From assembly GCA_945877185.1 (NCBI GenBank), contig CAMCRD010000009.1, positions 1-36,861 on the forward strand: a DNA stretch of 36,861 nucleotides, given 5' to 3'. The number at the start of each line of letters is the position of its first letter. The first letter of the stretch is position 1. The notes beneath the pieces are model-generated. The model worked only from the letters and a program-made list of their open reading frames with translations, did no database searches and was not told the DNA's origin. This document shows positions 25,675 through 28,214 of the stretch, one piece after another. The position numbers and the translations under genes were made by a program. This stretch comes from Candidatus Finniella inopinata. Lineage in GTDB: Bacteria; Pseudomonadota; Alphaproteobacteria; Paracaedibacterales; VGCI01.

Positions 25675-25941
25675 TTATAGTGGTTGCCCGATCCCAGCCT
25701 CTTTTAAGGATTGTTCATTTAATGCACCCCCGATGCAACAGTCCGCAATCTTGCCATCAATCACGATCGTCGGTATTTTATGAATGCCCATTTTCTTTGC
25801 CCGATCCGCAATTTTGGGATCTTTCATATCCAACACATTGATGTCACATGATGGACAGGCCATATCCTTGACCCGTTGGACAGCCTCCTCGCAAATTGGG
25901 CACCCTGCACTGAATATTTCTACGTTACGGTTTCTAACCAT
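25675..25941 (-). CDS. Thioredoxin/glutaredoxin-like protein with two CPxC motifs
   Basis: An 88-residue thioredoxin-fold protein without signal peptide. Seen: VEIFSAGCPICEEAV with C14-P-I-C17, a second pair C29-P-S-C32, cis-Pro motif KIPTIVIDGK (about 55-64), and an adjacent Cys pair C68-C69. Six cysteines in so small a protein suggest metal or thiol chemistry beyond simple disulfide exchange. It lies downstream of a mercury-type MerR gene and has a promoter-like block shared with merR (26028-26060), so it is probably the regulator's target. AGGA precedes the ATG. Confidence 0.85.
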   Translation of the reverse strand: MVRNRNVEIFSAGCPICEEAVQRVKDMACPSCDINVLDMKDPKIADRAKKMGIHKIPTIVIDGKIADCCIGGALNEQSLKEAGIGQPL

Positions 25942-26027
25942 TTGTCTCTTTCCTTATAAGTTAATAGAAAACTCGCTCTTATTATTCAACGAGCTAGGGC
26001 GTTTCATAATCACACCCTATAAGGAAG

Positions 26028-26060
26028 TGTGGGCCCTGCACCCTGGTGACGGGTCAAGGA
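26028..26060 (-). promoter_or_regulatory. Candidate MerR-controlled promoter of the thioredoxin gene
   Basis: The minus strand contains TCCTTGACC followed by CACC, AGGGT, AGGG and ACA. It matches the block upstream of merR (26646-26678) at 24 of 33 positions with no gaps. TTGACC would be the -35, as in many MerR-type promoters; the -10 is not clear. A CACCAGGGTG palindrome lies within it. Confidence 0.55.
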
Positions 26061-26108
26061 CTTTTTTTCTTGTGAATATTGTGGTTTAAGATCATCGCGA
26101 GCATATTT

Positions 26109-26513
26109 TTAATCCCTAGCTTTTATTTCACCCACGATCGGACAGTTTTCTAGAGGACCTTCTTTGGGGCATTTCGATTGCAAATCCAACAGTGTCTTCT
26201 TAATCTTTTGAAGCGCCTTTATTTTTTGTTCTATGATTTTAACCTTCGCTGTAGCGCGATCATTAATGGTATCACATCCCGTATTTTCATCTTCAATGAG
26301 GGTAACAAGATCGGCTATTTCACCTAACGTAAAACCCAGCTCTTTGCTTTTTAAAATAATTTGTAAGCGTGCAAGAGAATCCTTTGAGTAGTGGCGGTAC
26401 CCTGACAAACTCCGGTCAGAGGGGCACAAAAGGTTACAACGCTCATAAAAGCGTATGGTTGAAACTTTGACCCCTGCCACCCTTGCCAATTGCCCTATCG
26501 TTAAACCATTCAT
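26109..26513 (-). CDS. MerR family metal-responsive regulator, mercury-type cysteine triad
   Basis: MerR regulators bind between -35 and -10 elements and twist the DNA when bound to a metal. Seen from ATG 26513: the winged-helix head LTIGQLARVAGVKVSTIRFY, GYRHYS, a long dimer helix, and cysteines at 80, 115 and 124. The spacing of 35 and 9 equals that of the Hg(II) ligands C82, C117 and C126 of Tn501/Tn21 MerR. A GTG at 26516 is less likely since AGGGG lies six bases before the ATG. Mercury or another soft metal is the expected signal. No merA, merT or merP is nearby; the only apparent target is the thioredoxin-like gene. Confidence 0.9.
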   Translation of the reverse strand: MNGLTIGQLARVAGVKVSTIRFYERCNLLCPSDRSLSGYRHYSKDSLARLQIILKSKELGFTLGEIADLVTLIEDENTGCDTINDRATAKVKIIEQKIKALQKIKKTLLDLQSKCPKEGPLENCPIVGEIKARD

Positions 26514-26534
26514 CACTCACCCCTTTTACTTATG

Positions 26535-26640
26535 TATAGTCTTTTAAGTTTAGTTTTTCACAAGGAACAAGAAGCAACGCCTACTAAAGCTAGGCGAGCG
26601 ACGAAGTGACGATGTAAAAATCTAAAATCAAAAGACTATA
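26535..26640. repeat. 106-bp inverted-repeat element in the merR leader (MITE-like)
   Basis: The ends TATAGTCTTTT (26535-26545) and AAAAGACTATA (26630-26640) are perfect 11-base inverted repeats, and similarity continues inward for about 24 bases. Inside is another hairpin, CGCCTA (26578-26583) with TAGGCG (26591-26596). The outermost bases are TA on both sides, as expected for Tc1/mariner-IS630-type insertions. It lies between the merR promoter and start codon. Confidence 0.55.
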
Positions 26641-26645
26641 ATCCT

Positions 26646-26678
26646 TGTACACCCTAAACCCTAGTGTAAGGTCAAGGA
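26646..26678 (-). promoter_or_regulatory. Candidate autoregulated promoter of merR
   Basis: The minus strand starts TCCTTGACC and continues with CACTAGGGT, AGGG and TGTACA. TTGACC as -35 and TACAAG (26649-26644) as -10 would be 20 bases apart, the long spacing typical of MerR-controlled promoters. The same block occurs upstream of the thioredoxin gene. Confidence 0.55.
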
Positions 26679-26685
26679 GGGAGTC

Positions 26686-27573
26686 TTATGAAGGATCTTT
26701 TGAAGTCGCCAGTTGTGTTCTTAAACACCTTTGAAGACGCGGCATAAGAATATAAATTAAAACAACTAAGAAAGCATACTTAGTAAGTCCCATGACCCAA
26801 AGAAGGAATTTTGATCCCTCCTTTGGAATCGGAAATATAAAAGAAACCCCGCCTAAAATGCCAAGAGAAAGTAAGATTAAAAAAAGATTCATTCGTTTGC
26901 CTATGGCTGTATTTAAGGGCTCAGAAACTTCTCGCCATTGTAGAGATAGGCCATATCCAATCAGGGCTCCCAAGGCCATAACGACCATCGGAGGCGTTGA
27001 CTGAAAGCGAGAGATAAGAAAATACACCAAAGCGCCCCAAAAAATGATTATCCAATAGGAGCGCGTTTGGCCTGAAAGCCATTTTGAAACGAAGGACTGA
27101 AAGTGATTGTAATAAACCAGGAGGGTTAAACCACCCAAAAAGAAACCTACAATGACATCATAAGGACTATGCACGCCCAGATAAAGGCGAGAGAACATCA
27201 TTGTTGCAACAAGGCAGAGAGCAGCAAAAGAGAGCCCAAAAGATCGACGCGCAAGGCAAATCATCCCCCAAAATACGACAGCGACTTGAATGTCTCCACT
27301 TGGAAAACCAAAGGGATCATGAACAGGAACCAAATGAAAAGCATGATCAGGACGGGGAATCGAAAAGAGGTTTTTGAGCACACAATTGAGCAGCGTGGAG
27401 AAAGGCACGAGAAACCCTAAATCCCAAAACAGGCGATTTCGCGGTTGCCGCCAGTAGCCAACGGCAATTACAAGAATATAAAAACTGTCGCTTGCAAAGA
27501 AGGGAAACACCTTGAAAAAGCTGGTCAATGTGTCTGATCGAATGCTGACAATCCAAGAAAAAAGATCTAACAT
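26686..27573 (-). CDS. PAP2 family membrane phosphatase, motif 2 His replaced
   Basis: A multi-pass protein of the PAP2 (type 2 phosphatidic acid phosphatase) family. Seen: motif 1 KNLFSIPRP intact (K-x6-RP), motif 3 SRLYLGVHSPYD intact (SR-x5-H-x3-D), but motif 2 reads PSGD where PSGH is standard. That His is the general acid in characterised members, so activity is doubtful or altered. About eight hydrophobic helices are present; the last ones lie after the catalytic part. It starts with a seven-base overlap with the end of its PAP2 neighbour and is clearly a paralogue of it (PSGDIQVAVVFWG versus PSGHMQVAVAFYG). Substrate unknown; lipid A, undecaprenyl or phosphatidate are possible. Confidence 0.85.
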   Translation of the reverse strand: MLDLFSWIVSIRSDTLTSFFKVFPFFASDSFYILVIAVGYWRQPRNRLFWDLGFLVPFSTLLNCVLKNLFSIPRPDHAFHLVPVHDPFGFPSGDIQVAVVFWGMICLARRSFGLSFAALCLVATMMFSRLYLGVHSPYDVIVGFFLGGLTLLVYYNHFQSFVSKWLSGQTRSYWIIIFWGALVYFLISRFQSTPPMVVMALGALIGYGLSLQWREVSEPLNTAIGKRMNLFLILLSLGILGGVSFIFPIPKEGSKFLLWVMGLTKYAFLVVLIYILMPRLQRCLRTQLATSKDPS

Positions 27574-28214
27574 CCTAATTCTTTCCTATTGGATAGGTAG
27601 GTGATCAATAACCACCCCACCGCAATGCCCACAAGCCCCATAAAAGTAAGGATGATATGCGGCGGAATGCCGATGCGGTAATGGATGACCCCCATCATCA
27701 GCCCCGCAACGGGAAGGAGACTGAGGCCTAAGCATGCGGGATTTTTTTGAATAAAAGAAAAGCGCGTTATCTTCACAACACCATAAATGGTTAAGATGCC
27801 AACGGCAACAGCCGCGACAACATCTTCAAGAGTATGGTATCCTTGCTGAATCAAGCCATAACCAAGTCCTGTTAAAGTCAAAATGATAAGGCTACGAACC
27901 CCCCGATAAGCGTAAGCCCAAAACACCCACCCATAAAAAGCCACGGCGACTTGCATATGGCCACTGGGAAAGGCAAAGCCTTCTTTGCCAATTGCTGGAT
28001 TGAGGGGCACTAAAAAAAAAGATTTTAAGAGGGTGTTAAAGATCATTGTAAAAAGGATCAATAGGCAAGCATTTACCCACACGATAGTACCTTGCTCAGA
28101 ATTCTTTATGATATCATTTTTTTCTAATAAAAATCCAATAATGAGGAATGGAACAATGAGGGTGGGATGCCCAAATGCAAGAAATCCCTTAGCTAAAAAG
28201 TCCAGAGGTTCCAT
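27567..28214 (-). CDS. PAP2 family membrane protein, both Arg residues replaced
   Basis: The upstream member of a tandem PAP2 pair. Motif 2 PSGH is intact, and the His and Asp of motif 3 (YHTLED) remain. The Arg of motif 1 (KSFFLVPLN, Leu in place of Arg) and the SR of motif 3 are lost. Those Arg residues bind phosphate in active enzymes. Six hydrophobic helices are seen in 215 residues. The start is 9 bases downstream of recJ's stop; a GGAG lies rather far upstream (about 14 bases). With its neighbour it has a complementary pattern of losses, which may mean a heteromeric enzyme or two decayed copies. Confidence 0.85.
   Translation of the reverse strand: MEPLDFLAKGFLAFGHPTLIVPFLIIGFLLEKNDIIKNSEQGTIVWVNACLLILFTMIFNTLLKSFFLVPLNPAIGKEGFAFPSGHMQVAVAFYGWVFWAYAYRGVRSLIILTLTGLGYGLIQQGYHTLEDVVAAVAVGILTIYGVVKITRFSFIQKNPACLGLSLLPVAGLMMGVIHYRIGIPPHIILTFMGLVGIAVGWLLITYLSNRKELGC

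Follow-up and report, generated by a model that had tools for sequence, protein, structure and literature searches.

A merR-like gene and a six-cysteine thioredoxin gene, each behind a MerR-type promoter, as a putative minimal soft-metal stress module in Candidatus Finniella inopinata

What does a mercury-sensor-like MerR regulator do beside a small, cysteine-rich thioredoxin, and to which metal might the two respond? The locus that raises this question lies in the draft genome of Candidatus Finniella inopinata (1.85 Mb, 91% complete), on a contig that we analysed at its whole length of 36,861 nucleotides and refer to as the window. Both open reading frames described in the first-pass annotation are present where it had placed them. 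The first is a merR-like regulator gene (26109..26516, minus strand) that encodes 134 residues from the ATG at 26513, with a GTG at 26516 as an alternative start, and contains MerR_1 and MerR-DNA-bind domains. The second, separated from it by a gap of 167 bp, encodes a six-cysteine thioredoxin-fold protein of 88 residues with a Thioredoxin_3 match (25675..25941, minus strand). None of the adjoining genes encodes a mer transporter or reductase, as had been noted.

Two consecutive PAP2-family phosphatase genes (26686-28214) lie between merR and recJ. A same-genus genome (G003) keeps this PAP2 pair, and there about 6 kb of unrelated genes lie in the place of merR and the thioredoxin gene, separating the ABC transporter gene from the PAP2 genes. 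Different genes thus lie between shared neighbours in the two genomes, which marks a variable site, and the comparison does not reveal the insertion event. The regulator is absent from three same-genus genomes, and the thioredoxin from all 41 of the other sampled genomes of the order. The merR leader contains a palindromic repeat element of 106 bp (26535..26640, unstranded) with 28-bp arms and the ends TATAGTCTTTT and AAAAGACTATA, which belongs to a MITE-like family of about 19 copies in the genome. As many of these copies are found on other contigs, the element argues that the locus is native to this genome rather than a contaminant.

The regulator matches PF13411 (61.5 bits, MerR HTH) and PF09278 (55.8 bits, MerR DNA-binding), both above the curated cut-offs. 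Its top NCBIfam model is TIGR02051 MerR, which at 114.3 bits falls below the equivalog cut-off of 150.85 and outscores the CueR, ZntR and CadR/PbrR models. The best PDB match is 4ua1 (E 3.7e-25), which we take to be the Hg(II) sensor MerR of Bacillus, and the C-terminal end of the regulator, CPKEGPLENCPIV, resembles Bacillus MerR. Counted from the ATG at 26513, the protein has cysteines at positions 26, 30, 80, 115 and 124, of which Cys26 and Cys30 were absent from the first-pass annotation. The spacing of 35 and 9 given there for Cys80, Cys115 and Cys124 is correct and equals that of the metal cysteines Cys82/117/126 of Tn501 MerR (PMC5027573), so the part of the mercury-type reading that concerns three cysteines at Hg-sensor spacing stands. 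The spacing is not specific to mercury, however, as PbrR has the same one (C79/C114/C123) and ZntR uses C79/C114/C124 (PMC3431237). In a FastTree phylogeny the regulator falls beside CueR and the MerR of one thioredoxin-linked locus (L079) with support of at most 0.8 and does not group with 4ua1 or 5crl, and a tree so poorly supported assigns no metal. Given the identical spacing in PbrR and the low support in the tree, a soft divalent metal is the likely inducer as judged from the protein sequence, and mercury would be its leading candidate, a choice that we hold with slightly more doubt than confidence.

The upstream regions of the two genes resemble each other. The 33-bp blocks at 26646-26678 and 26028-26060 are identical at 24 of 33 positions, as first reported, and the predicted long-spacer MerR-type promoter was found before each gene, with a 20-bp spacer at both. 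The promoter and putative operator of merR (26644..26675, minus strand) consists of TTGACC at 26675-26670, the spacer TTACACTAGGGTTTAGGGTG and a -10 element TACAAG at 26649-26644, and the spacer contains the 9-4-9 dyad ACCTTACAC-TAGG-GTTTAGGGT. That of the thioredoxin gene (26026..26057, minus strand) consists of TTGACC at 26057-26052, the spacer CGTCACCAGGGTGCAGGGCC, which contains the 9-4-9 dyad ACCCGTCAC-CAGG-GTGCAGGGC, and a weak -10 element, CACACT, at 26031-26026. A 9-4-9 dyad within a 20-bp spacer is also the arrangement of the firmicute MerR operator, with the consensus ACCGTGTAC-4-GTACAGGGT (PMC1526738). When a matrix built from the promoters of 15 relatives, with no window sequence among them, was scanned along both strands of the window, the two sites ranked on top, the thioredoxin site at 22.1 bits and the merR site at 16.4 bits; the third site in the window reached 10.2 bits, and shuffling the window 30 times gave at best 12.1 bits. 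The merR site scores lower than most of the relatives' sites, whose leave-one-out scores are 16-42 bits. An 18-base pattern search of the 1.85-Mb draft found two exact copies of the core TTGACCNNNNACYAGGGT, those of these two promoters, besides two near-matches at one mismatch and eleven at two. In a search for further MerR targets, the six near-matches inspected (the pair with a single mismatch and four of those with two) all lay inside long open frames. The regulator very probably controls both its own gene and that of the thioredoxin.

To see how far the pair recurs, we turn to other bacteria. The thioredoxin family is rare: of 384 further genomes of the class, 5 had a match. In even samples of the class and the phylum, all eight strong matches outside the window (E < 1e-20; L075-L078, L080-L082 and L085) have an adjacent MerR gene, in either order. 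Across 20 loci from several phyla the neighbour is a MerR gene in 17, one of them by annotation only (L097) and one with several hundred bases between the genes (L079), and a CsoR-type repressor gene in the other three (L034, L035 and L044). The thioredoxin is therefore not devoted to this MerR alone, since the family also accompanies CsoR-type repressors and MerRs from other lineages. In several thioredoxin-linked MerRs (L075, 1049-1435; L040, 5001-5405) Ser replaces the first metal cysteine, as in Cu(I) sensors, and because of such substitutions the inducer may differ between lineages. The search for the promoter block upstream of related pairs, which had been suggested as a check, was run, and in nearly every pair the first gene is preceded by a single dyad-containing promoter of the form TTGAC[C/T]-19/20-TANNNT. 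The block is thus borne out in its general form. As a family rule, the copy before the second gene did not hold up: it is peculiar to this genome, and the second-gene upstream regions of 14 relatives contain no such promoter (best 5.9 bits, versus 22.1 bits here).

The company that the pair keeps varies. In Burkholderia contaminans it is joined by MerT, MerP and a GDCCVxC protein, on a plasmid with the order thioredoxin-merR-merT-merP-GDCCVxC (L039:6001-7609) and no merA annotated in the 12 kb inspected, that is, import genes without a reductase. MerF accompanies it in Gloeocapsa, HMA-like and outer-membrane-like genes (judged from their sequences) in Scalindua and others, and a Halobacillus plasmid carries a lone merR-thioredoxin pair. 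On this evidence of gene neighbourhood, the thioredoxin is a widespread and recurrent accessory of metal-regulated clusters. A plasmid of Cupriavidus metallidurans (L092:1369-2971) has a MerR gene followed by a different small thioredoxin with a single CSQC motif and then by a CcdA gene. We rejected this as the same pair, as its thioredoxin is of another family, and the pairing is apparently a second, convergent instance.

The protein shows the features that set its family apart, namely a CxxC, a second CxxC and a CC at fixed places, together with an adjoining metal regulator. Its six cysteines in 88 residues are those originally listed, Cys14/17 (CPIC), Cys29/32 (CPSC) and Cys68/69 (CC), and all six are 90-100% conserved in the family across several phyla. 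An AlphaFold2 model (pLDDT 81.7) has a thioredoxin fold, in agreement with the Foldseek matches, with strands at residues 6-11, 33-38, 58-61 and 64-68 and helices at 15-27, 42-50 and 76-82. C14xxC17 lies where helix 1 begins, the loop that follows this helix holds C29xxC32, C68C69 closes strand 4, and the cis-Pro position is P57. Because the known topology of the thioredoxin fold puts the end of strand 4 near the active site, C68/C69 would return to the edge that holds C14/C17 and the cis-proline, with C29/C32 at the opposite pole. We lean, with a little more confidence than doubt, toward metal-thiol chemistry as the job of this protein, most likely metal capture or thiol repair.

Taken together, these observations are probably best explained by a minimal, autoregulated soft-metal stress module. 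The first-pass annotation had likewise proposed a minimal soft-metal response; the MerR-type regulator, the long-spacer promoters before both genes and the absence of a mer transporter or reductase beside them uphold that proposal; the cysteine spacing by itself does not single out mercury. We hypothesize that a MerR dimer sits on the spacer dyad of both promoters and holds RNA polymerase poised and repressed. The inducer would be a soft divalent metal, with Hg(II) the most likely and Cd, Pb or Zn possible, coordinated by Cys80' from one subunit and Cys115/Cys124 from its partner, and metal binding would untwist the spacer DNA and switch both genes on, as in classical MerR activation. The thioredoxin would then act on cytosolic thiols that carry metal or are oxidised. 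Its C14/C17 and C68-C69 probably strip metal from the thiols of proteins or small molecules, or reduce those thiols, and C29/C32 could form another pair at the opposite pole. The two genes probably arrived by lateral transfer, within a broader mer-like set of accessory genes, of which the transport genes are absent here.

Of the alternatives, the one that fares best is that the module responds to a non-mercury metal (Cd, Pb or Zn) or to general thiol stress, with the thioredoxin serving as an ordinary disulfide reductant. It is a serious contender, even if we consider it less probable than a mercury response. The three-cysteine spacing shared with PbrR and the closely similar cysteines of ZntR fit it, as does the 22-bp dyad in a 20-bp spacer, which resembles the ZntR arrangement too (PMC1526738), and so do the CsoR-type repressors that precede the same thioredoxin family and the MerR, thioredoxin and CcdA genes of Cupriavidus metallidurans. 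It is harder to reconcile with the lead of the TIGR02051 model over the CueR, ZntR and CadR/PbrR models, and with the MerT, MerP or MerF genes that adjoin several family members.

Rather than a working module, the pair could be the decaying remnant of a larger mer-like operon that has lost its transport genes, duplicated a promoter by accident, received a repeat in the merR leader and is on its way out. Relatives often have MerT/MerF/MerP, HMA or GDCCVxC genes with the pair. No HMA protein was found in this genome by a search that was positive in 13 of 14 control genomes, and its best MerA match, in a draft that is 91% complete, scores 383 bits against a cut-off of 454; the MerT search gave no match here or in any control genome, so that it carries no weight. 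The single P-type ATPase found (L102; G000:C2:10150-10662) carries an ATPCPL motif, lacks an HMA domain and is encoded on a different contig from merR; it was rejected as a MerR target, as L102 has no operator (best 5.2 bits). The weak -10 of the thioredoxin promoter and the 106-bp element would also suit decay. The element sits downstream of the merR -10 and before the start codon, and as RNA it folds into a strong hairpin (-34.8 kcal/mol). However, it spares the merR promoter and the ribosome-binding site, the region of which is left unpaired. Moreover, neither gene is disrupted, every key residue is conserved, including those of the metal site of the regulator, two good operators persist at fixed geometry, and the lone pair exists in Halobacillus as well, so that we regard decay as unlikely. 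Chance similarity of the 33-bp blocks between genes that are mere neighbours, for which one could cite that there are only two copies and that nine positions differ, is rejected as far as sequence allows and is extremely improbable: in 2000 paired shuffles of both upstream regions that preserved dinucleotides, no more than 23 identities arose, the independent matrix from relatives finds both sites and the core is found nowhere else in the genome.

Returning to the minimal soft-metal module, a bolder extension would make the six-cysteine thioredoxin an unrecognised mer-type component, a cytosolic metal relay or sequestration protein that gives resistance alone, without reductase or transporter. 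The genome studied here would then hold the smallest form, its promoter duplicated to allow separate induction of sensor and effector. We put this forward as speculation and regard it as unlikely. A literature search on GDCCVxC or merR with a thioredoxin-like gene returned no description of the pair among the matches listed, and no description of the six-cysteine thioredoxin as a mer component was found in the searches made. If the thioredoxin does protect against mercury without MerA, it would represent a cheap route to resistance that surveys keyed to merA have missed. The family may be an overlooked mer accessory and is worth testing directly as such, and the lone two-gene form is a naturally minimal setting for examining whether it protects.

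Three known systems provide a comparison. With the Thioredoxin_3 and MTH895-ArsE-like small thioredoxins and Nitrosomonas NE0084 (PDB 2k8s), the protein shares the fold, a CxxC after strand 1 and the cis-Pro position. It nevertheless scores 24.5 bits with TIGR00412, far under the cut-off of 62, and the extra CxxC and the CC mark a separate family. With mer operons under an Hg(II)-responsive MerR (Bacillus type, 4ua1; Tn501 type, 5crl), the locus has in common the regulator fold, three metal cysteines, the CP...CPI metal loop and a long-spacer dyad promoter, whose spacer and dyad lengths are those of firmicutes (PMC1526738). It differs from them in that no merA, merT, merP or merF adjoins, the regulator scores under the cut-off of TIGR02051, a thioredoxin is the target and two same-strand promoter copies are present, one before each gene. 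The closest likeness is to the pairs in Scalindua, Halobacillus, Burkholderia contaminans, cyanobacterial plasmids and other relatives (L036, L038, L039, L040 and L043, together with the eight strong matches above), in which the same thioredoxin lies next to a MerR with a promoter before the first gene. Those relatives have a single promoter for both genes, mostly shorter gaps and often transport genes, whereas the present locus lacks transport genes and has a second promoter and a gap of 167 bp. Judged against these loci, the pair itself occurs in many unrelated bacteria, and what sets this one apart is its isolation together with its two promoters.
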